The translations under genes were made by a program, and so were the position numbers. A stretch of DNA of 54,017 bases from an uncultured Clostridia bacterium (lineage in GTDB: Bacteria > Bacillota > Clostridia > Christensenellales > Aristaeellaceae): positions 1-54,017 of the forward strand of contig CAMVFE010000012.1 of NCBI GenBank assembly GCA_947166705.1, read 5' to 3'. Below the pieces are notes generated by a model, which ran no database searches, was not told the DNA's origin, and was given only the letters and a program-made list of their open reading frames with translations. This document shows, one piece after another, positions 26,105-38,702 of this stretch; position 1 is the stretch's first letter, and each line of letters begins with the position of its first letter.

Positions 26105-27139
26105 ATGAAACGACTGCTTGCTTTTGTTCTGGTTCTGTGCCTTGCCGCGGGGCTGGTTTCCATCGCCTCTGCGGCAAAGATTACCATTACTTCCCAGCCC
26201 GAAACCCAGACGACGAAAATCGGCGGGACCCTGACCTTCAAGGTCAAGGCGAAGAACGCCGGGGATCAGCCGATCACCTGGTACTTCACCAATCCGGAAA
26301 CCGGCGAAACCACCACCGGCAAAAAGCTCTCAGGCGTGGTTCCCGGCGTGAAGGTCAGCAAGCCGAACAGTCTGGCCATTACGCTGAAGAAAATCCCCGA
26401 AGCGCTGCACGGCTGGACGCTGTACTGCCATATCGGCATGAAGGGCACCGGCGCGACCTCCAATCTTGCCATGATTCTGATCGAAGGCAAGGAAGTTCCT
26501 CCGATGCCAGTCCAGACCTACAACCAGCCCGCCGATTCCGATTCCTCGGCCAGCCAGCCCGTCGTCACACCCACCCCGGAACCGATCGTCATCAAGGCCG
26601 GCTCCAATGTGGATCTCTATGAGATGGACAGGAAGGGCAACATCCTGGGCGGCGCACAGTCCGAGCTCACTTTCGCCCAGGGTTCCGCGAACTTCATGAT
26701 GAAGCTGCAGGAGGGCGCGGAGTATCCGGTTCAGTACTTCTCCCTGGATAGTCTCCGCATCACCCCGGAGGGTGAAAACCTCTCCGGCCTGACCGGGCTG
26801 AGCATCCGCAACCTGGAGCACAGCGCCACCGCCAAGATCAAGCTCAACAAGCCCTCCACCGGCGGGGAAATCGTCCCGCGGGAAACGCAGGTGGAAGCCG
26901 CCGATCCTTCGACGCTGGTCACCGTCACCTGCACCTACTGCCGTTTCACCGGGTATAACAACACCTTTGCGGAAAGCGGCCAGGTGCCCGTCGGCACGAC
27001 CATCACCGTCATCGCCAGCGGCGGACGGATTTCGAAGGGCTATTCGATTAACGGCGCCAAGGCGGATTATAAGAATCAGGCATCCTTCCAGATGGTGGTC
27101 GAAGGCGATACGACCATCGTCATGGACAAGCAGAAATAA
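26105..27139 (+). CDS. Secreted Ig-like/InlB-type repeat protein, unknown function
   Basis: 344 aa. Signal peptide res 1-23 (ending ASA). Residues 24-130 look like a bacterial immunoglobulin domain (ITSQPETQTTKIGGTLTFKVKAKN ... TWYFTNPETGE ... YCHIGMKG). A Pro/Ser/Thr linker (~135-165, PVVTPTPEPIVIK) leads to a C-terminal beta-rich region containing TVTCTYCRFTGYNN and a final GYSINGAKADYKNQASFQMVVEGDTTIVM segment. No anchor or sortase motif, so probably released or wall-associated by charge. GGAGGAGG site; own promoter and strong terminator. Confidence 0.75.
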   Translation: MKRLLAFVLVLCLAAGLVSIASAAKITITSQPETQTTKIGGTLTFKVKAKNAGDQPITWYFTNPETGETTTGKKLSGVVPGVKVSKPNSLAITLKKIPEALHGWTLYCHIGMKGTGATSNLAMILIEGKEVPPMPVQTYNQPADSDSSASQPVVTPTPEPIVIKAGSNVDLYEMDRKGNILGGAQSELTFAQGSANFMMKLQEGAEYPVQYFSLDSLRITPEGENLSGLTGLSIRNLEHSATAKIKLNKPSTGGEIVPRETQVEAADPSTLVTVTCTYCRFTGYNNTFAESGQVPVGTTITVIASGGRISKGYSINGAKADYKNQASFQMVVEGDTTIVMDKQK

Positions 27140-27155
27140 TCCCGAAAGTGAACGG

Positions 27156-27191
27156 GAACGGGCGCGGCCAAAGCCGCGCCCGTTCTTTTTT
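27156..27191 (+). terminator. Strong intrinsic terminator
   Basis: 13-bp perfect stem GAACGGGCGCGGC (27156-27168)/27173-27185, 4-nt loop, T6 (27186-27191). It separates the secreted-protein gene from the convergent GH43 gene. Confidence 0.93.
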
Positions 27192-27199
27192 CATGCCGT

Positions 27200-28084
27200 T
27201 CATTCCGCTGCGGGGGCTCTCCGGATCTCCGGCAGGCCGTCGTTCCCGATGTCCAGCGGAATAAAAACCGGCCTTTCCTTCATCCGCCGGTTCGGGCTGT
27301 GAAGCGTCAGGAAGAGCTGTCCGTCCAGCCCGCGGAAGATCATCCCGTGTCCGCCGTCCTTCAGGAACAGCGGGTCCGCCTGCCGGAAACGCCCGTCAAT
27401 ATCGCCGTTGTCCGAAAGCGCCGCGCCCTGGGCATATCCCTCCTCCGAAAAGCCTGACCAGAGGCACAGCAGCCTTCCGTCCTCCAGCCGCCAGAGGAAC
27501 GGACCGTCCGTCACATACCCCGTCACGCCGCTCGAATGGCGCACGGGGCAGCTCCAGGGGGCTTCGGAAGCTCGGAACAGCAGCGAAGGTTCGCCCGCGG
27601 CCGCCTTCAGATCCTCCGTCAGCCGGACAGCCCGGATCTCGCCGTCTCCGGCCTGTACCCATTCGTGGCAGAAAACCATGTAGGGGATTCCCCGGGGAGA
27701 GAGGTAGAAGGTGCCGTCCAGGCATTCCCATTCCGCCGGCGTCACGGGCCCGTCGGACCAGGGGCGGAAGGGCCCCGCCGGGGATTCCGCCCGGAGAATG
27801 GCGGTTCCCCGCCTCCTGTGCTCGCTTTTGAAGCTCGCGAACAGGTAAAACGCCCCCTTCCAGGGGTGCACCTCCGGCGCCCAGTAGTTCCGGTCCGCCC
27901 AGAAGGTGCCGTCGTTCTGAAAACACACCGCGGGCCCTTCCCAGATCCGCAGGTCCTTTCCCGTATAGACGTCAAAGCCGTCCGCCGCGCCCCAGCAGGT
28001 GGGGCCGCGGGTTCCGTACAGATAGTAAGCGCCGTCGTGGACAAGCACGAAGGGGTCGCGGATATGGATCTCTTCCGTCTTCAT
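27200..28084 (-). CDS. Glycoside hydrolase family 43 enzyme (cytoplasmic)
   Basis: 294 aa, five-bladed beta-propeller expected. GH43 catalytic features: RDPFVL at res 9-14 (base Asp), WECLDGTFYL (pKa-setting Asp, ~123) and FCHEWVQ (acid Glu, ~141). Family activities are arabinan/xylan side-chain hydrolysis (alpha-L-arabinofuranosidase, arabinanase, beta-xylosidase). No signal peptide, so it would act on imported oligosaccharides. The start has an ATGA overlap with the AraC-type regulator and a GAGGAGG site, making it the last gene of the binding-lipoprotein/regulator/hydrolase cassette. Confidence 0.88.
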   Translation of the reverse strand: MKTEEIHIRDPFVLVHDGAYYLYGTRGPTCWGAADGFDVYTGKDLRIWEGPAVCFQNDGTFWADRNYWAPEVHPWKGAFYLFASFKSEHRRRGTAILRAESPAGPFRPWSDGPVTPAEWECLDGTFYLSPRGIPYMVFCHEWVQAGDGEIRAVRLTEDLKAAAGEPSLLFRASEAPWSCPVRHSSGVTGYVTDGPFLWRLEDGRLLCLWSGFSEEGYAQGAALSDNGDIDGRFRQADPLFLKDGGHGMIFRGLDGQLFLTLHSPNRRMKERPVFIPLDIGNDGLPEIRRAPAAE

Positions 28085-30324
28085 GATACGTCCTCCTCCC
28101 CCGTTTCCTTTTTGCCGTTCTCGTGCCCGCGCCGGTACTGCATCGGCGTCTCCCCCGTCACCTGTTTGAAACGGCGGATAAAGCTTCCCGCGTCATAGTA
28201 GCCCACCTGGACGCTGATATCCCGGATGGGCGTCTCCGTGCCGGCCAGCAGGTCCTTGGCCCGCTCCACGCGCAGCAGCGTCAGGTATTCCAGCGGAGGC
28301 ATGCCCTTTCTTTCCTTGAAGGACAGGCTGAAGCGGGTGGTGGACAGCTCAAAGGAGTCGGCGATGGCGGTCATGGAGATTTCCGGATCGCTGTAATGCT
28401 CCTCCATGTAGCGGACCGCCTGGTCGATCTCGTCCTCCTCCGCCGCGCTTCCCTCCGCCTTCTCTCCGCCGCTCAGCAGCAGGTCGCAAAGCTTCCGGAG
28501 CATCTCGTCCAGGTCGTCGATGGACTGGCAGGAGGACAGGGAAAAGATATCGTAGAAATCCCGGGTGCTCGCTCCGCTGGGCACGCCGGAAGCATGGGTG
28601 TGCAGGAGCATGTTGATCACGCTGTTGTAGATCATCCGGAATGCAAAGGGAGACATATGTGTATTCTTCAGAAAGTGCAGCAGGTCGTTGATCCGGGTAT
28701 CCAGCAGCTCCCTGCTTTCCAGGGCCAGCGCCTGGCTGATGGAAAGCGTCAGCTTCTGCGCCTGCGGCAGGATATCGGGCACACTGGAGGAGACATCCTG
28801 GTAGGCCAGCACCTGGTGGGTCCCCATGGCAAACCGGTTGTCATAGGCGGCGGCCGCCTCCAGATACGCGCCGGGGGCATCCTCGAAATCCGAATGAACC
28901 GCGGACACGGCCGTCACGCAGCGTCCGCCGCCTGCCTCGCCTTCCCGCAGCATGATTCCCGCCAGGGCCGGCAGCGTGCCGGGCTCATCCATGAAAACCA
29001 GATAAAGCTGCGCCCTGAGCGCCACCAGCTCCGTCCCCGCCCCGGAGTATCCCGTCAGGCTGTCGAAGGGCGGCCGGTTCAGCTCGAAGGGATGGTCGCT
29101 GCCCTCCGCTCCGCTGCACAGGATCACCGCGTAGCAGGCCCGGTCGATTTCCAGCCCCGCCAGTCTTCCGGCCGCCGCCGCCTCGCTCCGGGAGGCGTAG
29201 CGTCCCTTGATGAACCGAAAGATAAAGTCATGACGCTGCATGGGCAGCGCGCCTTCCAGCCGGGTCGTCAGCTCCCTGTTCCGGGTGGTCAGCTGCCGGA
29301 TTCCGGAGGAGATCCGGGTAATCTCATCCGTCCCGCCGCCCCTGCCGTCCGCCGGCAGCAGCCCGGTCAGCGCCTGGATGGGAACCGCGTGCCTGCGCGC
29401 CATCAGGAGCGCCAGCCCCAGGCACAGGATCACAAACACCGGCAGAATTGAAAGGTTGCTGAGGATTTCCTTCCCGACAGCCGCGCTGATGTCGGCGTTC
29501 CGAAGCACCGCGGCATAGGAAAGGCCCCAGTTCCGGTCCTTCAGGGAGACCAGGGTCCAGTCCTCCCCGCGGCGGCGGAACGTGCTGATTTCCCCCTCGT
29601 CCGGGGCGGGCAGCTCCTCCCAGGATATCGGCAGGTCCTCGCTTGATGCCAGCGCCTGCCCGTCCTGGAAGATATAGGTATTCGTGTTCTGATCGATGGC
29701 GTCGGAAAAAAGGCTCCGGTATACGCTGTCCTTGATGAGGAACAGCAGCGTTCCCTTCCCCGTTCCGGGACCGGCGCCCAGGGGCGTCAGGAAAGTCACG
29801 GCCCGGGAACCGTCCATCAGGCTGGACTCCACGCGCTGGGACGGCAGGATCGTCAGCCGGTCAGCGCCGCGTATGAGGGCGGAAAGCTGTTCAGGGCTGA
29901 CCAGCTCATAGGCCATCATCCGTGTGAACATGTCCAGGGTCATCGAAGCGGAGGAGGAATAGATCCGCTCATCCTCCGGGAAATACAGGTAGACCTGGTC
30001 GCAGAAGGTATTGGTGGACGTATAGGGAACCAGCTGCAGCTGCAGGTCATAGGCCTTCCAGGGCTCCAGGTCGTACCTGAAGGGTTCGATATGCGGGCTC
30101 AGTCCGATCTGCTCGGCCGTATTCAGCATGGCGGATATATAGCTTTCGTGCTGGCTGGCGATCCGGGTCAGCCGGTTGATCTGCCCGTCGATCAGGTTCC
30201 GCCGCGCGTGTTCGCCGGTGCGCACGTAAAGATACCCCGCGATGCTCAGGAACAGCGTCAGCACCACGGCGGTATAGGACAGCGCGTATCGGATGAATAC
30301 GGTGGTTTTTCCTGCCTGCTTCAC
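28081..30324 (-). CDS. Transmembrane AraC-family regulator with extracellular sensor domain
   Basis: 747 aa. TM1 res ~10-32, extracellular sensor (~33-285, Cache-like; SQHESYISAMLNTAEQIGL start), TM2 ~287-312, a cytoplasmic linker domain with DEITRISSGI (HAMP-like position) and a middle region like other YesN/YtdP-type regulators, then a C-terminal AraC double HTH (~635-735: ISMTAIADSFELSTTRFSLSFKERKG ... IRDISVQVGYYDAGSFIRRFKQVTGETPMQYRR). It binds DNA from the membrane in response to an outside ligand, presumably activating this glycan locus. Start is GTG at 30324, overlapping the stop of the binding-lipoprotein gene (GTGA). No histidine kinase is nearby or needed. Confidence 0.93.
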   Translation of the reverse strand: MKQAGKTTVFIRYALSYTAVVLTLFLSIAGYLYVRTGEHARRNLIDGQINRLTRIASQHESYISAMLNTAEQIGLSPHIEPFRYDLEPWKAYDLQLQLVPYTSTNTFCDQVYLYFPEDERIYSSSASMTLDMFTRMMAYELVSPEQLSALIRGADRLTILPSQRVESSLMDGSRAVTFLTPLGAGPGTGKGTLLFLIKDSVYRSLFSDAIDQNTNTYIFQDGQALASSEDLPISWEELPAPDEGEISTFRRRGEDWTLVSLKDRNWGLSYAAVLRNADISAAVGKEILSNLSILPVFVILCLGLALLMARRHAVPIQALTGLLPADGRGGGTDEITRISSGIRQLTTRNRELTTRLEGALPMQRHDFIFRFIKGRYASRSEAAAAGRLAGLEIDRACYAVILCSGAEGSDHPFELNRPPFDSLTGYSGAGTELVALRAQLYLVFMDEPGTLPALAGIMLREGEAGGGRCVTAVSAVHSDFEDAPGAYLEAAAAYDNRFAMGTHQVLAYQDVSSSVPDILPQAQKLTLSISQALALESRELLDTRINDLLHFLKNTHMSPFAFRMIYNSVINMLLHTHASGVPSGASTRDFYDIFSLSSCQSIDDLDEMLRKLCDLLLSGGEKAEGSAAEEDEIDQAVRYMEEHYSDPEISMTAIADSFELSTTRFSLSFKERKGMPPLEYLTLLRVERAKDLLAGTETPIRDISVQVGYYDAGSFIRRFKQVTGETPMQYRRGHENGKKETGEEDVS

Positions 30325-31880
30325 GGGTTCTTTTCGCCCCCCTGCCGACGGTCATAGATGCGCTGATAGATCTTCCTGTATTCCCCGCTCCCGGCTTCCT
30401 GAAGCCGCCGCAGGAAGGCGGCGCGGCCGTCCTCGGTCACGCCCCGGGTAACCATGCCCACGATTTCCGCGTCCACGATGGTTTTCAGCCTGGCCTTCAG
30501 CCTCGTCAGCCCGGCATCCTCCGCGGCGGTTTTGGGTGCCACCGCGGTCAGCAGCTTGAAGCAGGTATCCTCCAGCACCCCCGCTTCCTCATACCGGGCG
30601 CAGTATTCCGCCTTCTCCTGCCGGTGCGCGGCAGGAACATACACGGAGGCATAGTATTCCGCCGGCGCGAAGAACTGGCCGCAGATCACCGGCACTGTCC
30701 GGTACAGCTCGTTGTCCTTCGGCACATAGCTGACCTCGTAGCGCCCGTCCTCCCGCAGGATCAGGGTGTCCCCCAGCTCTCCGTTCTGGGACACCAGCAT
30801 GTTTTCCGTCTCGAACTGCGCGTCCAGCCACCGCAGGCTGCTCTCGATATCCCGGTTGTCGGTCGTCAGGGCGGCGCCGAATTCGATGGTGTCCATATTC
30901 CGCGGCAGCCTGGCCCGCGTTCCCTCCGCGTGCACGGGGATCATCAGCCGGTACGCCGCCGCGGTCTCCGGGCTCAGGGCCGTGTTCTGCAGCCGCCAGT
31001 AGCTGAAAAGCCCGATATTCCCTTCGTTCACCTTTTCGGCCCAGATGTTGCTGCCCTGGCTGATAAAATCAATATCCAGCAGGCCTTCCGCGTACATCCC
31101 GTGCAGCCATTCCAGCGCCGAGAAGAACGCGTCCTCCTCCGGCGCGAAGCATACCTGTCCCCGCCCGTCCAGATAGACATATTCCTCGTTCAGCGGCAGC
31201 CCAAAAAAGGAGAACAGGTTGTAGATGCCCGTGATATTGTCGTCAAAGGTGAATTCAAGCGGGATCTCGTCCTTCCGTCCGTTTCCGTTGGGATCGTCGT
31301 CCCGGAAATGCCGGAGGATCTCCGTCAGTTCCTCCACGGTTTCCGGCTCCTTCAGCCCCAGCCGCTCCAGCCAGGCTCCGTTGATAAAGAAGTGTCCGTT
31401 GGTGTTCACATCCTGGGAAATCAGAAAGCCCAGCTGGTACATATGTCCGTCCGAGGCCGTCAGCTGGTCGCGGAGGCCGCTCTTTTCCAGGCGTTCCGCG
31501 TAATGGGGCAGCATGCCCTTCCGGATGTATTCATCCAGCGGAACCAGCAGATGCCGGGTCACGCCGTATTCCTCCACGTCCAGGGAACCGCGCAGAATCA
31601 TGTCCGGCATTTTCCCCTTTGCGAAGGCGAGGCTGACGGAGCTGTTCCATTCCGAGTCCTTCACCTCGTCGAATACCACGCGGACGCCGGTCTGCTCTTC
31701 GATTTTCCGGAAGAACCACATGTCGCTGAAGTCCATGGCCACGTTCTCGATTTCATACTGGAGTGCGGTCAGGGAGACGGCGGGCCCGGCCGTCTCTCCG
31801 GCCGGCGGTTTTCCCGCGCAGCCGGTCAGCAGCAGCGCGCCCGCGAGCGCGAAACAAAGCCCGATGATCCTGCGGTTCAT
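30321..31880 (-). CDS. Sugar-binding lipoprotein coupled to the AraC-type regulator
   Basis: 519 aa, LplA-like extracellular solute-binding protein. Signal peptide with lipobox LLTGC (res 17-21), so lipid-anchored. It is a paralogue of the binding protein at 32090-33595: shared blocks include LTAxQYxxEN, WFF, KMPDMILR, DVEEYGVT, PLDEY and ASDGH, in the same order. It is not next to the permeases but is translationally coupled (GTGA) to a transmembrane AraC regulator, with its own promoter and leader hairpin. Either an alternative import receptor or a ligand-presenting sensor partner of the regulator; the second is my inference. Start at 31880 with AAGGAG 6 nt upstream. Confidence 0.9.
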   Translation of the reverse strand: MNRRIIGLCFALAGALLLTGCAGKPPAGETAGPAVSLTALQYEIENVAMDFSDMWFFRKIEEQTGVRVVFDEVKDSEWNSSVSLAFAKGKMPDMILRGSLDVEEYGVTRHLLVPLDEYIRKGMLPHYAERLEKSGLRDQLTASDGHMYQLGFLISQDVNTNGHFFINGAWLERLGLKEPETVEELTEILRHFRDDDPNGNGRKDEIPLEFTFDDNITGIYNLFSFFGLPLNEEYVYLDGRGQVCFAPEEDAFFSALEWLHGMYAEGLLDIDFISQGSNIWAEKVNEGNIGLFSYWRLQNTALSPETAAAYRLMIPVHAEGTRARLPRNMDTIEFGAALTTDNRDIESSLRWLDAQFETENMLVSQNGELGDTLILREDGRYEVSYVPKDNELYRTVPVICGQFFAPAEYYASVYVPAAHRQEKAEYCARYEEAGVLEDTCFKLLTAVAPKTAAEDAGLTRLKARLKTIVDAEIVGMVTRGVTEDGRAAFLRRLQEAGSGEYRKIYQRIYDRRQGGEKNP

Positions 31881-31904
31881 ATGTTCTCCTTCACAATACA
31901 GAAA

Positions 31905-31942
31905 GGGCACCGCCTTCTGAGTCTTCCTCAGGGGCGGTGCCC
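31905..31942 (-). terminator. Long two-part hairpin in the leader of the binding-lipoprotein gene
   Basis: Outer stem GGGCACCGCC (31905-31914)/GGCGGTGCCC (31933-31942), 10 bp perfect; inner stem CTGAG (31917-31921)/CTCAG (31927-31931). On the minus strand it is followed by TTTCTGT. It lies downstream of the promoter at 31960-31989 and 25 nt before the start codon. It can be the terminator of the permease/binding-protein operon coming from 32090, an attenuator of the new transcript, or both. Confidence 0.7.
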
Positions 31943-31959
31943 CGCGGTCCTGATGATGC

Positions 31960-31989
31960 ATTATAGCATGATTCAGCCGCGGCGGGCAA
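31960..31989 (-). promoter_or_regulatory. Internal promoter for lipoprotein-AraC-GH43
   Basis: Minus strand TTGCCC (31984-31989), 18-bp spacer, TATAAT (31960-31965). The consensus -10 and weak -35 suggest an activated promoter. Confidence 0.6.
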
Positions 31990-32089
31990 GCTTCAGCCCA
32001 GCCTTTCCGTGCTTATTCCGTTTCGTTGTTCCGGTTTTTTCGCGCTCCGGCTTTCCTGCTCTCGCGCCGTCTCCTTGCTTCGCCCGCTC

Positions 32090-33595
32090 TTATTTCGCCA
32101 GATAGGCGTCGTAGGCGTTCTGGTACAGCTCGATGTAGCGCTCCGATCCGATGGCCCGGGCCTGCTCCTGGAAGGCGTTCCAGCTCTCGTCGGTCACGCC
32201 GTTGCGTACGAAGTCGGAGAAGGACTCCTCCACCAGCTTCTGCAGTTCGGTGTAGATGTCGGAAGCTTCCGTCGCGTCCTCGTTGCTCATCTTGCTCAGG
32301 TCCCGCAGGTACTGGAAGCTCTTGTATTCCAGCACGTTCTCCTCGGCGTACCACTTGCTGTCCTCGTAGCGTTCCACGCGATGGGGCGCCATCTGGTAGA
32401 TGGAGGTGTAGTAATCTCCGGGAGCGAAGAACTGGCCCATGGTCACGGGCACAAACTGGTACAGTCCGTTGTCGGCGGGAATGTCGATCACTTCATATTT
32501 GCCTTCGTCATTCAGCACGATCTGCTCGCCGACCCTGCCGTTCAGGGATACCATCATGGTTTCCGTCTCCAGCTGGGCGTCGATCCACTTCAGCGCCGCC
32601 ACCGGGTCCTTGCAGTTCTTCGTCAGGTAGGCGCCGGCTTCCGGAACCTCCAGGATCTGGGATACGGCGGGCCTGAAGCCCTCTGCCGCGGGGGGCAGGA
32701 TGGACTTGAAATTGGGCACGTTCTCAGCCGCGATGGCGGTGTTGATCAGCCGCAGGTAGCAGAAGTAGCCGACCTCTCCGTTGTTTACCTTGTTCGCCCA
32801 GAGGTTGCTGTCCTGGGTCAGGGATTCCGGATCCATCAGCCCTTCCTCGTACAGGGAGTGCAGCCATTCAACGCAGGCGCGCCAGCCGTCCTGGGCGGCG
32901 GTAAACTGCACCTTGTCATTCTCGTCGATAAAGTAGTAGTAGGTGTTTTCCGGCACGCCGAAGGAAGCGAACTGGTTCCAGATCGTCTCCGGGCCGAACT
33001 GGGTGTAGGAGGCGGAGAAGGGCCAGGTGATTCCGTCCGCCTTCATGGCGCGCAGCATCGCGGTCACTTCCTCGATGGTCTTCGGCGCTTCCATGTTCAG
33101 CTTGTCCAGTTCCTTCTGGTTGACGTACCAGGTGCCGGTGTGGTTGACATTCTGAGCCATCAGGAATCCGATGAAGTAGGTATGGCCGTCGCTGGCCGGG
33201 ATGGAATCGCCCGCGTGGTTGATGTTCAGGCGGCTGACGTAGTTGGGCATGATCTCTTCCGTCAGATACTCATCCAGCGGAAGCAGCAGCCCCTGGGTCA
33301 CGCCGTATTCCTCCACGTCCACGGCGTGGCGCAGGATCATGTCGGGCATTTTGTCCGGCACGCCGAACATCAGGTTGGACTTCGTCGCCCAGTCCGCGTC
33401 CTTGACCATGTCGAAGGTCACGTGGGTGTTGGTCTTTTTCTCCAGTTCATCGAAGAACCAGAGGCCGTTGAAGTCGGTGTTCTGGTTTTCCAGCGCGTAC
33501 TGGAAGGCGGTCAGCTCCACCTTCTCCTCGGCGAGCGCCGCGCCGGCGCCCAGCAGCATGCATGCCGCCAGAAGCAGGGAAATGAGTTTCTTCAT
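32090..33595 (-). CDS. ABC sugar transporter, extracellular binding protein (LplA-like)
   Basis: 501 aa. Family-1-type solute-binding protein for a CUT1 importer, directly downstream of its two permeases. The signal peptide has two readings: signal peptidase I cleavage after ALA (res 20-22), or lipidation at Cys12 in LLAAC; the very short segment before Cys12 makes the first likelier, which would be odd for a Gram-positive binding protein. Homologues in Bacillus (YtcQ with YtcP/YteP) import rhamnogalacturonan fragments. Perfect AAGGAGGT site. No clear terminator before the promoter of the paralogous gene. Confidence 0.93.
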   Translation of the reverse strand: MKKLISLLLAACMLLGAGAALAEEKVELTAFQYALENQNTDFNGLWFFDELEKKTNTHVTFDMVKDADWATKSNLMFGVPDKMPDMILRHAVDVEEYGVTQGLLLPLDEYLTEEIMPNYVSRLNINHAGDSIPASDGHTYFIGFLMAQNVNHTGTWYVNQKELDKLNMEAPKTIEEVTAMLRAMKADGITWPFSASYTQFGPETIWNQFASFGVPENTYYYFIDENDKVQFTAAQDGWRACVEWLHSLYEEGLMDPESLTQDSNLWANKVNNGEVGYFCYLRLINTAIAAENVPNFKSILPPAAEGFRPAVSQILEVPEAGAYLTKNCKDPVAALKWIDAQLETETMMVSLNGRVGEQIVLNDEGKYEVIDIPADNGLYQFVPVTMGQFFAPGDYYTSIYQMAPHRVERYEDSKWYAEENVLEYKSFQYLRDLSKMSNEDATEASDIYTELQKLVEESFSDFVRNGVTDESWNAFQEQARAIGSERYIELYQNAYDAYLAK

Positions 33596-33641
33596 GGGGA
33601 TACCTCCTTTATTTTTCAGGGCCCCCGGCCCATATTTAACG

Positions 33642-34574
33642 TCAGCCCTTCAGCGAGCCGATCATCACGCCCTTCACGAAGTACTTCTGCATGAACACAT
33701 ACAGCAGCACGGCGGGGACGGTGGAAACCACGATGCAGCAGTACTTGGCAACCTCCGCCTTGCGCAGCGCCTCCTGAAGGCCGCCCAGGTTGTCCGCGTA
33801 GGCGGCGAAGAAGGTGTCGGAGGAACCGGTGGATGTGAGGGAAGCGAGGATTTCGCGCAGCACCAGCTGCAGCGGATACAGGTTCCGGTCCCGCAGCATC
33901 ACAAGCCCGGTAAAGTAGTCGTTCCACCGGGCCACGCCGTAGTAGACGGACAGCACGGCGATAATGGTGCCGGAAAGGGGCAGCACGCAGCGGAAGAAGT
34001 AGGTGAAGTGGCTGGCCCCGTCCATGACCGCCGCTTCGTACAGCTCGTTGGGGATGCTGGTCTGAATGTAGGTGCGCGCCACCATCAGGTTCCAGACGGA
34101 GACGAGGTTCATCAGGATCATGACGCTGCGGGTATTGTACAGGCCCAGGTCCCTCACATTCAGGAAGATGGGGATCAGGCCGCCGGAGAAGAACATGGTG
34201 AAGGTGATCGCCAGGTTCACGAGCTTTTTCCCCGCAAAGCGCCTGCTCAGCGCGTAGGCAGCCGCCAGGGTCACCACCACGCTCAGGGCGGATCCCGCCA
34301 GCGTGTAGAATACGGAATTGGCATAGCTTCCCCACAGCTCGGTATACTGGAAGACGGCTTCATACCCCATGAGGGAGAAGTCCACCGGCCAGAGGAGGAC
34401 CCGCGCCTGCAGCACCGCGTCCGGGTCGGACACGGAAGCGATCAGAATCAGCCACAGGGGGTAAAGGACGATCAGCAGGACCAGAGTCCAGAAAACCAGG
34501 TTCACGGCGTTGAAGATCCGGTCCCTGCGGGTTTCCCGGATCCGCGTCCCGCCTTTTGCCGCAGCGGAGATCAT
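33642..34574 (-). CDS. ABC sugar transporter permease (LplC/YtcP-like)
   Basis: 310 aa, MalG-type CUT1 permease with six predicted spans. The EAA loop contacting the ATPase is YEAAVMDGASHFTYFFRCVLPLS (res ~180-202). VLYPLWLILIASVSDP and the FVKGVMIGSLKG end are typical of the LplC subgroup. 19 nt after the partner permease, 46 nt before the binding protein. No ATPase gene is encoded here; these systems use a shared MsmX/UgpC-type ATPase from elsewhere. Confidence 0.95.
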   Translation of the reverse strand: MISAAAKGGTRIRETRRDRIFNAVNLVFWTLVLLIVLYPLWLILIASVSDPDAVLQARVLLWPVDFSLMGYEAVFQYTELWGSYANSVFYTLAGSALSVVVTLAAAYALSRRFAGKKLVNLAITFTMFFSGGLIPIFLNVRDLGLYNTRSVMILMNLVSVWNLMVARTYIQTSIPNELYEAAVMDGASHFTYFFRCVLPLSGTIIAVLSVYYGVARWNDYFTGLVMLRDRNLYPLQLVLREILASLTSTGSSDTFFAAYADNLGGLQEALRKAEVAKYCCIVVSTVPAVLLYVFMQKYFVKGVMIGSLKG

Positions 34575-34592
34575 GCCCGGCTCCCTCCTTTC

Positions 34593-35549
34593 TCAGAACA
34601 GGCTGATATCGCTCATCCTGCGGGAGATGGCATTGACCAGCAGGATAATGGCGAAGTTGATGACGTTGAGGCACAGGCCGATGGCGGAAGCGTAGGAATA
34701 CTGCGCTTTGGTTGCCGCGATTCCCACGCTGTACACGTACACCCCCAGAATGTCGGAGGTGGCCATGTTGCCGCTGGTCTGAAGCAGCAGGGCCTTGTCC
34801 GTGTTGGAGGACAGGAGCGACCCGCAGTTCAGGATCAGCATCATCACCGCGATGGGAATCAGGTGCGGAATGTCGATGTGCCGGATTTTTTCCCACCGGG
34901 TCGCCCCGTCGATCGTGGCGGCCTCGTACAGCTGGGGATCGATGCTGGTCAGCGTCGCGATGTACAGGATGGTGTTCCATCCGGCGTTCTGCCAGATTTC
35001 GGATCCGATGAACAGGGGCCGGAACCATCCCGGTTCCATGATAAAGTAGATGCTCCTGCCTCCCGCCGCGGTGATCAGGTGGTTCACGATGCCGTTGGTC
35101 GGCGAGAAGAACAGGTAAATCATTCCCGCCAGCACCACCGTGGAGATGAAATGGGGTACGTAGATCGCCGTCTGGGCAAAGCCCCTGAACCGTTTCCTGT
35201 TCAGCTGGTTGAGCATGATCGCCAGCAGGATGGGCACGGGAAACCCGAAGATGAGCCCGAACAGGTTCAGCAGGAAGGTGTTGGCAAACATCCTTCCGCA
35301 GTAATAGCTGCTGAAAAACTTTATAAAATACTTCAGCCCGACCCACTTGCTTCCCGTGATGCCGAAGGCCGCCTTATAGTCCCGGAAGGCAATCTGCACG
35401 CCGTACATCGGGAAGTAGCAGAACACGATGAAGAAAGCCAGCGCGGGCATCAGCAGCGCCCACAGCTGCCAGTCGCGCCGGACCTCAAGGGCCGCGCGGC
35501 GGCGGATGCCGCCTCCTCTTCCCTTTCCGGCTGCAGGGATTGCTCGCAT
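34593..35549 (-). CDS. ABC sugar transporter permease (LplB/YteP-like)
   Basis: 318 aa, MalF-type partner with six spans and a basic N-terminus (res 1-27). EAA loop: YEAATIDGATRWEKIRHIDIPHL (~res 207-229). FCYFPMYGVQIAFRDYK near the first span is characteristic of LplB. First gene of the leftward transport operon, strong GGAAGGAGGG site 9 nt before the ATG. Divergent from the MGH1-like hydrolase gene. Confidence 0.95.
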   Translation of the reverse strand: MRAIPAAGKGRGGGIRRRAALEVRRDWQLWALLMPALAFFIVFCYFPMYGVQIAFRDYKAAFGITGSKWVGLKYFIKFFSSYYCGRMFANTFLLNLFGLIFGFPVPILLAIMLNQLNRKRFRGFAQTAIYVPHFISTVVLAGMIYLFFSPTNGIVNHLITAAGGRSIYFIMEPGWFRPLFIGSEIWQNAGWNTILYIATLTSIDPQLYEAATIDGATRWEKIRHIDIPHLIPIAVMMLILNCGSLLSSNTDKALLLQTSGNMATSDILGVYVYSVGIAATKAQYSYASAIGLCLNVINFAIILLVNAISRRMSDISLF

Positions 35550-35642
35550 GTTCCGGAACCCTCCTTCCCATTTTCCAGGGGCCTGTGAATCTGGTTGCTT
35601 TTCACCCGGATTCTACCCCGTAGGGCAGGCGGAAAGGAAGAA

Positions 35643-35655
35643 GCGAAATTTTCGC
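35643..35655. promoter_or_regulatory. Palindrome in the divergent promoter region (operator candidate)
   Basis: GCGAAA-T-TTTCGC, a perfect 6+1+6 inverted repeat, 94 bp from the permease start and about 80 bp from the rightward -10 box. A second palindrome, GCATATGC, lies at 35693-35700. The position between divergent catabolic operons suits a local regulator; no protein can be assigned. Confidence 0.35.
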
Positions 35656-35734
35656 ACATTCCCCGTTTTTTCAGCCTTCCGGCCATTTTTCCGCATATGC
35701 AGAATTTTTGCGCCTGTGCGTTTCGGGGCGGATC

Positions 35735-35743
35735 TGGTAGAAT
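35735..35743 (+). promoter_or_regulatory. Extended -10 promoter for the hydrolase pair
   Basis: TGG-TAGAAT (TAGAAT at 35738-35743) without a good -35, as expected for an activator-dependent promoter. On the opposite strand a TAGAAT at 35610-35615 may serve the permease operon, also lacking a -35. Confidence 0.45.
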
Positions 35744-35836
35744 GGTATCCGTCAGAACAGGACCGTCAGCATATGAAATTGGACAGGATGAGCGGACTGA
35801 TAAACGGTCATCGGCAACGGACAGGAGGAAAGGGCC

Positions 35837-37273
35837 ATGCTGCCTGAAACCGGCGTTTCCTTTCATACGGAGGATCCCGTCCTCCGGCGGGTGTACGAGG
35901 CCGCGGAAAAGGGCTGCCTCGCCAATCTTCGCTCCTTCGGCGGCCGCACGGTGCTGGTGGAGGGCGGCGGCTATGAAAAGATCTGGCTGGAAACCCAGCC
36001 CATGGGCGGGGAAATGTACGCGCTCCGGAATCCTGAGGCAGCCCGGAACAATATTTCCCTCTTCATGGAACATCAGCGGGCGGACGGGCGGCTTCCCGGC
36101 TCCATCCGCTTCTCGGACGGCCGGGTGGAGCCCCAGTTTGACAAGTACCAGGGCTTCTGTTTTCCCTTCCCCGCGCTGAACCTGTATTATCTGCTCGGCC
36201 GGGACTCCGGCTGGCTCCTCCGCCTTCGGGACTGCCTGGTCCGGTTTGATGCCTGCCTGTGGAAAACCCGCAGCCTGGATGACAGCGGGCTCCTGTATTC
36301 CTTCTGCGTCTACGATACGGGCGAGGATCTCGCCCTGCGTTACGGGGACGCCCCCTGCTGGTGGGAAAGCGACGAACCGCCCCGGGGATATCAGGTCGTG
36401 CCGATGGCCTCCATGGACGTGACGAGCTGGAGCTGCGCCGCCCGGTATACCCTGGCCGAAATCAGCCGCCTGCTGGGGCGTCCGGAGGAGGCGGAGTCCT
36501 GGAACAGGAAGGGAGCGGCCGTGGCGGCCGCGCTGCGGCGCCGGCTGTGGGACTCCCGGCGCGGCGCGCTCTATGACCGGGATCACAGCGGAAAAACCGT
36601 CGATATCCTCTGCCACAACACCCTGCGCTGCATGTACTGGGGCAGCGTCTCCCGCGCCATGGCGGACCGCTTTGTCCGGGAGCATCTCCTGAATCCCGCG
36701 GAATTCTGGACGCCCTTCCCGCTGCCCAGCGTGGCCGCGAATGATCCGGCTTTCCGAAACGCGCCGGAGAATAACTGGAGCGGCCAGCCGGAGGGCCTCA
36801 CCTATCAGCGGGCCATCCTGGCCCTGGAAAATTACGGCTGGCACCGTCTGGTCACCCGTCTCGGGGAAAAGCTGATCGCTGCCGTTTCGGAAAACGGCCT
36901 GCGCTTCACCCAGCAGTTCGACCCCTTCACGGGGCGCCCGTCCCTGGTCCACGCCGTCACCCATACCCCCGTGGCCGCGGACAGCGGACAGCCGGTGCAG
37001 GACGCCTACGGGCCCACCCTGCTCGCCTGTCTGGAATACATCGCCCATCATTTCGGTATCCACCCGCATCTGGGCCGTATCTGGTTCAGCCTGGGCAGCG
37101 GCAGGGCCTACGAATATGAGGCGCTCTTTTCCGGCCTCCGGTGTACGATCCGCAGCGACGGCGTCCGGGCGGAGGCCGCTCTGGGCGGAAAGCCGCTCGG
37201 CGTCTTTGACTGTGGCCGGCGTCTGATTGTCTCAGAGGGCGGCGAAATCCTGCGCAGCGTCGCCATCGAATGA
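35837..37273 (+). CDS. MGH1/GH63-like glycoside hydrolase, (alpha/alpha)6 barrel
   Basis: 478 aa, no signal peptide. Six-hairpin glycosidase pattern: repeated amphipathic helix pairs and blocks such as SWSCAARYTLAEISRLLGR, ARYLWD-like LRRRLWDSRRGALYD, and NNWSGQPEGLTYQRAILALENYGW, which resemble the mannosylglycerate-hydrolase-like (MGH1)/GH63 and GH37 region. Exact substrate not deducible; intracellular processing of imported oligosaccharides is inferred from the locus. The ATG at 35837 is preceded by CAGGAGGAAAGG. Followed 16 nt later by the GH28-like gene. Confidence 0.8.
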   Translation: MLPETGVSFHTEDPVLRRVYEAAEKGCLANLRSFGGRTVLVEGGGYEKIWLETQPMGGEMYALRNPEAARNNISLFMEHQRADGRLPGSIRFSDGRVEPQFDKYQGFCFPFPALNLYYLLGRDSGWLLRLRDCLVRFDACLWKTRSLDDSGLLYSFCVYDTGEDLALRYGDAPCWWESDEPPRGYQVVPMASMDVTSWSCAARYTLAEISRLLGRPEEAESWNRKGAAVAAALRRRLWDSRRGALYDRDHSGKTVDILCHNTLRCMYWGSVSRAMADRFVREHLLNPAEFWTPFPLPSVAANDPAFRNAPENNWSGQPEGLTYQRAILALENYGWHRLVTRLGEKLIAAVSENGLRFTQQFDPFTGRPSLVHAVTHTPVAADSGQPVQDAYGPTLLACLEYIAHHFGIHPHLGRIWFSLGSGRAYEYEALFSGLRCTIRSDGVRAEAALGGKPLGVFDCGRRLIVSEGGEILRSVAIE

Positions 37274-37289
37274 AAAGGAGGCGGTATCG

Positions 37290-38702
37290 GTGAAAGGTCT
37301 TTATTCGGTTCCGGAAAACGGCGCCCTGCCCGCCTGGTGTTCTCCCCTTCAGGCCTCCCTGTCGGGCATGGCGGAGGAGCTGACGCGGCGTCTCCGCCCC
37401 TGGCAGGTCTCGGAGCGCGTCTTTCTCCCGGAGGACTACGGCTTTTCTCCGGGGCGGAAGGCCACCCCGGCGATCCAGCGGGCCATCGACCGGGCTTCCC
37501 TCTCCGGCGGCGTCGTGCGCCTGACCCGCGGGGATTACCTCAGCGGAACCCTGGTGCTTCGCTCGGGCGTCTGCCTGGAAATCTGCGCCGGCGCGCGGCT
37601 GCTGGGCAGCACGGACCTGGCGGATTATCCCGAGCATCATGCCGCGCGCCTGACCGTGCAGGACACGTCCATGGGCATGCATCAGTCCCTGATCTTCGCG
37701 GAAGGCTGCTCGGACATCGCGCTGCGGGGCGCGGGCGTGATTGACGGCCAGGGAAGCCCCCGGCATTTTCCGGGTGAGGAGACAGCCGCGGGAACGCCCG
37801 GGCGTCCCTTCCTTCTCCGCGTCATCGACTGCCGCCGGGTGCATGTCAGCGGCCTGACCCTGAAGGATGCCGCCTGCTGGATGCAGAACTACCTGAACTG
37901 CGAGGATCTCCTGATCGAGGATCTTACCGTCCGCAACCACGCGAATTTCAACAATGACGGCATGGATATTGACGGCTGCCGGAATGTGGTCGTCCGCGGG
38001 TGCCGCGTATCCAGCGGGGACGATGCGCTCTGCTTCAAGGGCGCTTCCCGGCGGGAGCTGTCCGGCGTCCTGGTGGAGGACTGCGATTTTTATTCCGCCT
38101 GCAATGCCGTCAAGGTGGGCACCGACACCCAGGGGGATTTCCGCCGCGTGCTGATCCGGAACTGCCGCGTCGGCGGCCTGGCGGAGGATCCCTCCGGTCT
38201 CAAGCATCCCTGCGCGGACAGCGGCGTTTCCCTGGAGATCGCGGACGGCGGTACGCTGGAGGATTTCTGGCTCTCCGGCCTGCGGATCACCCGGGCCTGG
38301 AGCCCCTTTTTCCTCCGTCTGGAGGACCGCGGCCGGGTCAGGCCGGGCGATCCCCGTCCCGGCGTCGGCCGGCTGCGTCGGGTGCTGTTCTCAGGCATAC
38401 GGGGTGATCACAATGGCCCCCGGGGATCCTATCTGATGGGTATCCCCGGGGGCACGATCGAAGATATTGTGTTTGATGAGATTGATCTGCGCCAGTATGC
38501 CTGGCAGGGCCCGGCGCCCGCGCCCGAATCATATTCCGATTTCCGGGGCTGCTATCCGGATGCCCACATGATCGATTCCGTCGGCCCTGCTCCGGCCTTC
38601 GCGCTGTGGACGCGCCATACCCGCGGCGTCTTCCTGCGGGATTACCGGATCCTGCCCGACGGGGCGGATCCCCGTCCCGCCCTTCTGGATGAAGGGGATT
38701 GA
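37290..38702 (+). CDS. GH28-like right-handed beta-helix enzyme (polygalacturonase-related)
   Basis: 470 aa from a GTG at 37290 with AAAAGGAGG about 9 nt upstream. N-terminal DYGFSPGRKATPAIQRAID is the typical polygalacturonase-like opening, then parallel beta-helix coils. NNDGMDIDGC and SGDDALCFKG match the first two GH28 motifs (NTD, DD), but the GHG position reads ACN and no RIK is evident; the following VGTDTQGDFRRVLIRNC block is family-like. It may be a GH28-related hydrolase with altered specificity. No signal peptide, so cytoplasmic. Fits degradation of pectin or rhamnogalacturonan fragments. Confidence 0.8.
   Translation: MKGLYSVPENGALPAWCSPLQASLSGMAEELTRRLRPWQVSERVFLPEDYGFSPGRKATPAIQRAIDRASLSGGVVRLTRGDYLSGTLVLRSGVCLEICAGARLLGSTDLADYPEHHAARLTVQDTSMGMHQSLIFAEGCSDIALRGAGVIDGQGSPRHFPGEETAAGTPGRPFLLRVIDCRRVHVSGLTLKDAACWMQNYLNCEDLLIEDLTVRNHANFNNDGMDIDGCRNVVVRGCRVSSGDDALCFKGASRRELSGVLVEDCDFYSACNAVKVGTDTQGDFRRVLIRNCRVGGLAEDPSGLKHPCADSGVSLEIADGGTLEDFWLSGLRITRAWSPFFLRLEDRGRVRPGDPRPGVGRLRRVLFSGIRGDHNGPRGSYLMGIPGGTIEDIVFDEIDLRQYAWQGPAPAPESYSDFRGCYPDAHMIDSVGPAPAFALWTRHTRGVFLRDYRILPDGADPRPALLDEGD

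Follow-up and report, generated by a model that had tools for sequence, protein, structure and literature searches.

Why does an importer locus that already has a transport binding protein carry, directly behind it, a second binding protein joined to a membrane-bound regulator? We addressed this question for a stretch of 54,017 nucleotides from an uncultured Clostridia bacterium of the family Aristaeellaceae (contig CAMVFE010000012.1 of assembly GCA_947166705.1, positions 1 to 54,017), which is called the window throughout. In this order on the minus strand, the locus encodes two permeases of an ATP-binding cassette (ABC) importer (permB and permC), the transport binding protein (T), a binding lipoprotein (L), a membrane AraC-type regulator (R) and a glycoside hydrolase of family 43 (GH43). 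L starts 209 bases past the T gene on the same strand, and both permease genes lie just before T. An earlier note, made from the letters of the window alone, had described L, R and GH43 as three overlapping genes with their own promoter and had suggested that L was recruited as the ligand receptor of R. The overlaps are present as described, with GTGA at 30321-30324 shared by L and R and ATGA at 28081-28084 shared by R and GH43. From comparisons across related genomes we conclude that L is probably the dedicated sugar receptor of R, a membrane one-component AraC-type regulator that would switch on the importer and the adjoining glycosidases. Where individual cases have to be told apart, loci are labelled L plus a number (e.g. 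L087) and genomes G plus a number (e.g. G248).

L and R form a conserved pair

Relatives of the locus were collected with a profile of the part of R outside its helix-turn-helix (HTH) domain, which at E 1e-5 matched 107 places in 85 of 308 genomes of the same GTDB family. Eighty of these places were fetched and annotated with our own profiles for binding proteins, permeases, AraC HTH domains, R and GH43. As the L class we defined binding proteins of at least 350 residues that directly precede a relative of R and have no permease gene just upstream (n = 38, including L098, which was added by hand). Because this class was defined by adjacency to R, and was thus circular with respect to pairing, the 308 family genomes were searched separately with L alone, counting as close relatives those with at least 55% identity. 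This search returned 45 places, of which three run off the contig end (G303, G036 and G166). R follows L directly in 41 of the 42 assessable places, namely the 38 loci together with G008, G025 and G251.

In the regulator tree, all 38 R partners fall inside one clade of 42 members (Shimodaira-Hasegawa-like approximate likelihood ratio test, SH-aLRT, 100). The clade's four other members sit at contig edges or are broken. In G303, another contig closes with T and L; G025 has a contig that ends with T, L and the opening residues of R; in G251, the contig opens with an L that is cut; and the fourth is G106. Two loci look decayed. Only fragments of L and R are left in L107 (G106), next to an operator-like site of the kind described below, while L149 (G042) lacks R and has permB, T and L in truncated form.

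The gap between L and R, as called, ranges from -59 to +21 bases and is most commonly -4 to +5 in the 38 loci, bar L098, where 182 bases separate the two genes and the reading frames look broken. What the relatives retain of the overlapping cassette is therefore the adjacency of L and R, and not the exact four-base overlap. GH43 was not confirmed as a fixed part of the cassette, as it is the next gene after R in only 23 of the 38 loci.

The further statement that L is separated from the permeases was too strong: L lies directly downstream of T, on the same strand, in 30 of the 38 loci, and a location away from the permeases is the minority case. The pair is kept where the transporter is divergent (L087, L088, L097 and probably G167, whose L-R contig begins at the divergent operator region). 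It is likewise kept in G248, where a 50-kb contig carries the importer and L-R stands midway along another of 38 kb, and in G251, where the importer contig has no L close to T and the L-R contig starts inside L. In G263, the contig of L also carries the end of T, an insertion precedes L, and the permeases stand on a different contig along with the same operator and the divergent glycosidases. That some L-R cassettes stand alone, far from any importer, was a reading we partly withdrew; only G248 and, as far as its contigs reach, G251 look unlinked. A repeated lipoprotein-AraC pair, including cases away from permeases, is what the earlier note had anticipated. As the contrary pattern it had named loci in which the lipoprotein regularly sits beside permeases and the AraC gene elsewhere; the first half of this pattern was observed and the second was not.

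L arose by one duplication and carries a predicted lipid anchor

Across 503 aligned columns, L and T share 40% identity (E 3e-132), which bears out the proposed paralogy of the lipoprotein with the adjoining transport protein. Relatives of L in the PDB include 5g5y, AlgQ1 (1y3n) and AlgQ2 (4tqu). In a tree of 101 binding proteins, the 38 L proteins form one side of a single branch (SH-aLRT 99), and their sister group consists of 33 proteins of transport type, 32 of them classed as such and the other taken from a locus with a single binding protein. Mapped on this tree, the L class requires one label change, compared with 30.7 when the labels are shuffled, which places the origin of L in one duplication.

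Among 43 family genomes with a T of at least 64% identity, 40 also have L; of the three others, G168 is a contig-end fragment, and G174 and G175 are taken up below. No close L or R was seen in eight fetched operons whose T-like protein is 46-53% identical; two of the eight carry an AraC-type HTH gene of another kind on the same stretch. Regulators that are more distant stand after one binding protein only (S loci, such as L099, L103 and L104). A likely history is that permB, permC, a solute-binding protein and R stood together first, and that the binding protein was then duplicated, one copy becoming anchored and tied to R.

The N-termini of L and T differ in their processing signals. We applied a lipobox test uniformly to all rows. 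It required a cysteine at residue 15 or later with a polar stretch behind it, and its thresholds were chosen once the data were known. A lipobox was found in all 38 L proteins, in one of the 30 assessed sister T proteins (three of the 33 were not assessable by this test) and in 7 of the 30 assessed other binding proteins of the loci. An A-x-A cleavage site was present in 28 of 30 T versus 2 of 38 L. The tether that follows the lipobox cysteine in L measures 12-17 residues. A loose xx[GSA]C rule also picked out 14 of the 30 T proteins; the late cysteine and the polar stretch were required because these matches fall nearly always inside the hydrophobic run, mostly at residue 11 or 12. The LAAC of the window's own T (residues 9-12) sits within this run and was rejected as a lipobox.

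LGT-family matches were found in all five genomes searched and Omp85 in none of the five; a lipid anchor is thus plausible, and by that test the cells look single-membraned. With a signal peptide that contains a lipobox cysteine, and with an Lgt match in its genome, L has the features of a bacterial lipoprotein. The predicted lipid anchor is the strongest sign that L has specialised. Two further observations concern this machinery. Four to seven LGT-family matches, some of them weak, were seen per genome (G003, G004, G009, G023 and G000), where a single copy would be expected. Most transport binding proteins of L022-L138 have an A-x-A site and no lipobox by the uniform test, although Omp85 is absent.

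Within the aligned proteins, 126 columns are at least 92% uniform and identical in L and T, and 37 are at least 92% uniform yet different between the two, seven of these being gaps in T. The differing columns suggest specialised roles. Residues 196-205 of L (31266-31295) keep a DPNGNGxxDE stretch, a putative calcium-like loop that T has lost.

R has the layout of a membrane one-component regulator

R contains the AraC-type double HTH that defines the AraC/XylS family. A predicted input domain and the DNA-binding domain are joined in one chain by membrane segments, as in membrane one-component regulators, and the extracytoplasmic domain would serve as the input. Pfam gave no kinase or receiver domain in R at E 0.001, only HTH domains, and among 25 of the 28 NCBIfam families listed for R there were AraC-type models only, matched via the HTH. 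A pair of membrane histidine kinase and response regulator was thus not matched here, and the gene after R is GH43. The arrangement had been called a one-protein-chain analogue of signalling assisted by periplasmic binding proteins. This wording is not apt, because L and R are two proteins, and the element that is missing is the relay of kinase and response regulator.

An operator-like site beside permB accompanies the regulator clade

A candidate binding site of R, TGTGCGAAAATTTCGCTTCTTC, faces permB. Its core is the sole match in the window at three mismatches (chance 0.00) and the sole match in its own genome; of nine other genomes scanned, some have further, mostly weaker matches elsewhere. 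For the scoring of any one locus, its site was excluded from the matrix. Around the start of the permB-like gene, a site of at least 20 bits was found in 24 of 31 loci of the regulator clade, and none of 30 other loci had one of at least 15 bits (best, 12.0). L081 and L094 were scored as misses, although L081 has a site of 34.0 bits at a distance of 966 bases from the called permB and L094 one of 24.9 bits at 1045 bases. In loci outside the matrix, sites upstream of permB reached 38.5 bits (G263), 32.0 bits (G303) and 29.1 bits (G025); those of G248 and G251 scored 20.6 and 17.0 bits. The operator-like site was found upstream of L in only three of the 38 loci, presumably those in which permB is divergent from L. 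Because the site tracks the regulator clade phylogenetically, we infer that R binds it. Far from the locus, a 26-bit operator-like copy was seen in G023 (L140; C1:2416766-2416786), possibly marking a second target gene.

L and R appear to have their own promoter

The true start of L is at 31880, where a ribosome site and a signal peptide are found; the listed start of the open reading frame, 31961, is too early. Upstream of this start lies the promoter that had been claimed for the cassette, TTGCCC-18-TATAAT. It is the one promoter-like site in a scan of 9.1 kb, which by number is not above chance (2.2 in shuffles). The score was based on TTGACA-16/18-TATAAT with a preceding TG, and shuffled sequences (40 each) reach the same score in at most 5%. 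By this measure 32 of the 38 loci, window included, have a site of at least 10/13 within 200 bases upstream of L.

In 25 of the 38 loci the promoter is separated from L by a terminator-like hairpin that has a T run. This hairpin (31943-31904 in the window) and its counterparts could attenuate expression of the sensor. L and R would probably be made separately and at a low level. The candidate of an RNA switch was rejected; no Rfam family reaches its gathering score in 26900-36000, and the simplest reading is a T terminator within the L leader. An inverted repeat (31990-31940) has the -10 element of the L promoter in its loop, and its arms are strongly different among several relatives. The repeat around the -10 is individually significant (p ≤ 0.05, 100 shuffles) in 11 of the 38 loci, and inverted repeats with varied arms occur upstream of L in L060, L075, L077, L082, L083, L089 and L091. 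As an operator of R it was dropped because the arm sequences are not common to the loci. It may instead mark where the T transcript ends (3'), as it resembles an RNA hairpin more than an operator.

Gene content of the locus

The features of the locus are collected in Table 1. The cluster most likely targets pectin side chains or rhamnogalacturonan, because the nearest models of the GH28 enzyme are a rhamnogalacturonidase and a polygalacturonase and the nearest PDB entry of GH43 is 5c0p, named an endo-arabinase. GH43 has no evident signal peptide. In five relatives of one genus (L064, L066-L068 and L070), a second small AraC-type gene of about 300 codons lies between permC and T. The genome from which the window comes is a 2.2-Mb assembly, 71% complete; two close relatives are metagenome-assembled genomes with the labels Clostridiales and Clostridia, and one of the two comes from sheep rumen.

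Table 1. Positions of genes, protein segments and regulatory candidates in the window
Feature	Positions	Strand	Remarks
GH43 enzyme	27200..28084	-	Matches the Glyco_hydro_43 profile, E 9.9e-26; optional passenger
R, membrane AraC-type regulator	28081..30324	-	747 aa; no matched kinase or receiver domain
AraC HTH_18 of R, residues 654-732	28129..28365	-	Matches PF12833 above its cut-off, E 6.3e-21
Transmembrane segment 2 of R, ~residues 285-309	29398..29472	-	Predicted by hydropathy
Extracytoplasmic domain of R, residues 44-268	29521..30195	-	dCache_1-like, below Pfam cut-off
Transmembrane segment 1 of R, ~residues 13-34	30223..30288	-	Predicted by hydropathy
L, binding lipoprotein	30321..31880	-	519 aa; solute-binding protein family 1; proposed dedicated sensor protein
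Cys21 of lipobox LTGC in L	31818..31820	-	16-residue tether before the binding domain
Terminator-like hairpin	31904..31943	-	Separates the promoter from the start of L; arm sequences vary among relatives
Own promoter of L-R, TTGCCC-18-TATAAT	31960..31989	-	Promoter-like site with TG before the -10; predicted
T, transport binding protein	32090..33595	-	A-x-A cleavage site
permC, ABC importer permease	33642..34574	-	PF00528
permB, ABC importer permease	34593..35549	-	PF00528
Operator-like site TGTGCGAAAATTTCGCTTCTTC	35637..35658	-	Faces permB; proposed R binding site
Second, weaker operator copy	35696..35717	+	17.2 bits; faces the divergent glycosidase genes
MGH1-like glycoside hydrolase	35837..37273	+	PF22422, E 2.7e-29; divergent from permB
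GH28 enzyme	37227..38702	+	Nearest curated models rhamnogalacturonidase and polygalacturonase, both below cut-offs

A proposed signalling route and what weighs against it

We propose that one old duplication of T gave rise to L, that L became lipid-anchored, and that it is made from its own promoter together with R. L would bind an oligosaccharide outside the cell, probably one derived from pectin or rhamnogalacturonan with arabinan side chains, and L would touch the Cache-like extracytoplasmic domain of R. R, held in the membrane by two segments, would bind the repeated sites beside the permB promoter and switch on the importer and, in the opposite direction, the divergent glycosidases. As to the type of system, we lean towards a kinase-free two-protein receptor, in which a lipid-anchored binding protein may directly gate a membrane-spanning AraC factor and so convert sugar outside the cell into transcription via one contact across the membrane.

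Covariation of evolutionary rates was analysed over 25 taxa and 47 branches. With T and permB held, the rates of L correlated with those of all parts of R (partial r = 0.64 for the sensor domain, 0.67 for the cytoplasmic part and 0.53 for the HTH). The data support the view that the locus evolved jointly, and L together with R, but they do not point to a place of contact.

Several findings weigh against the proposed route. Given T, permB and the cytoplasmic and HTH parts of R, the correlation between L and the sensor domain was 0.16 (p = 0.27); with the sensor domain held instead, that between L and the cytoplasmic part was 0.35 (p = 0.017); and T itself correlated with the sensor domain at 0.40 (p = 0.005) given permB and the cytoplasmic and HTH parts. 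These values speak against a simple reading as contact coevolution. Part of the linkage between L, R and the transporter is plain operon inheritance, as follows from the position of L directly after T in most loci. G174 and G175 have T (65-68% identity) and no L, together with regulator relatives that have no adjoining binding-protein gene, so the T operon can exist without L. The sole unpaired L, in G042, is a truncated remnant followed by another gene. Searching a sample of 396 genomes of the order at E 1e-40, we found no match outside this GTDB family; all eight matching genomes, our own included, belong to it. The Cache-like nature of the sensor domain, assumed from the outset, is weakly indicated: dCache_1 matches R with E 2.2e-4 and 21.3 bits against a cut-off of 45, and at E 1 it was matched in 7 of 36 relatives of R (best, 7.6e-9). 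An AlphaFold model of the outer domain, built from three sequences, was poor (mean predicted local distance difference test score, pLDDT, 52.8) and was not used. The interpretation of L as sensor partner of R is upheld in part, and its main point is better supported than the sequence alone had allowed the earlier note.

Alternative explanations

L could be a second transport binding protein of the same importer with another sugar specificity, in which case R would sense directly via its Cache-like domain and the adjacency of the two genes would be happenstance. L does keep the binding-protein family and the 126 uniform columns in common with T, it stands directly behind T in the 30 loci mentioned, and sister regulators exist that have no extra lipoprotein. 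However, L and R are kept together in loci whose transporter is divergent or lies on a different contig, and no R of the clade was found without L where the contig permits the check (G106 has fragments only). L also has its own promoter, and the lipid-anchor site is in L and not in T. We consider this explanation unlikely.

It is decidedly unlikely that L does both, scavenging at the membrane for the importer and modulating R in either direction, for example by keeping R inactive, in the manner of LysP and CadC, until it is released by ligand or by transport flux. Co-sensing by a transporter is established for CadC-LysP (PMC5936718), and L is closely linked with the importer in most loci. The transporter and L-R are, however, unlinked in G248 and, as far as its contigs reach, in G251, and the columns that differ between L and T suggest that their roles have become specialised. 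That the cassette is an ordinary tail of a sugar-utilisation operon, with no special link between L and R, is scarcely credible: four-base overlaps are common in operons and GH43 is freely exchanged (present in 23 of 38 loci), yet R comes after L in 41 of 42 assessable places while GH43 and the upstream neighbours vary, and the rates of L and R covary beyond T and permB.

Relation to known systems and significance

In CuaDSR of Ruminiclostridium cellulolyticum, the sensing operon is separate from the importer operon and is described as constitutive (PMC10384115). CuaDSR has a second binding protein dedicated to sensing beside the transport one, the role that is proposed here for L; the CuaDSR sensing genes form their own operon, which controls the importer operon, and CuaD binds the sensor (PMC10384115). 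CuaS and CuaR are a two-component pair of sensor and response regulator (PMC10384115), whereas here one membrane AraC protein would replace both and no kinase was matched. The locus would work like CuaDSR, yet it falls outside that type, since the kinase and the response regulator are missing.

Systems in which one binding protein serves sensing and a second serves uptake are reported from Geobacillus stearothermophilus and Clostridium beijerinckii (PMC10384115), and a XylFII-LytS system has been described (PMC6321045). A dedicated sensing sugar-binding protein beside the transport one is the likeness between these systems and the arrangement proposed here. We take the two systems to be AraPST (G. 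stearothermophilus) and XylFII-LytS-YesN (C. beijerinckii); they differ from ours in their kinase-based relays and in using other binding-protein families. In a model of hemicellulose use by Clostridium cellulovorans, a solute-binding protein is proposed to signal through the membrane to an AraC-type regulator, but with a membrane histidine kinase in between (PMC4441647). CadC-LysP resembles the proposed L-R pair as a membrane one-component regulator that reads its ligand via a transport-related partner; it differs in that the partner is a permease, the HTH is winged and not of AraC type, and inhibition is relieved by lysine and low pH (PMC5936718).

The S-type loci, with their single binding protein, show a plainer layout like that of YesN/YtdP/YesS. 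R resembles regulators of the YesN/YtdP/YesS type in its AraC HTH, its large size, the membrane segments seen in one-component members and the linkage to sugar importers; we know of no dedicated lipoprotein partner for these regulators. As to L, 5g5y, AlgQ1 (1y3n) and AlgQ2 (4tqu) belong to its sequence family. They are named as transporter binding proteins and, to our knowledge, have no sensing role.

That binding proteins assist sensing by kinases and chemoreceptors is well established. Receptor types driven by binding proteins include chemoreceptors, sensor kinases, cyclic-di-GMP enzymes and Ser/Thr kinases, according to a 2022 review (PMC9602780). In the open-licence literature, to the extent that its text was available, we found no description of a binding protein that feeds a membrane-bound (AraC) transcription factor. 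If the proposed reading is true, membrane transcription factors would join these receptor types, and the locus would be a minimal case, with one receptor protein, one membrane transcription factor, one operator region and one promoter. It would also show how duplication of a transporter gene may give rise to a sensor, with the gain of a lipid anchor as an easily recognised sign of that change. Other gut Clostridia could be searched for this layout, which might also be usable as a compact sugar biosensor.

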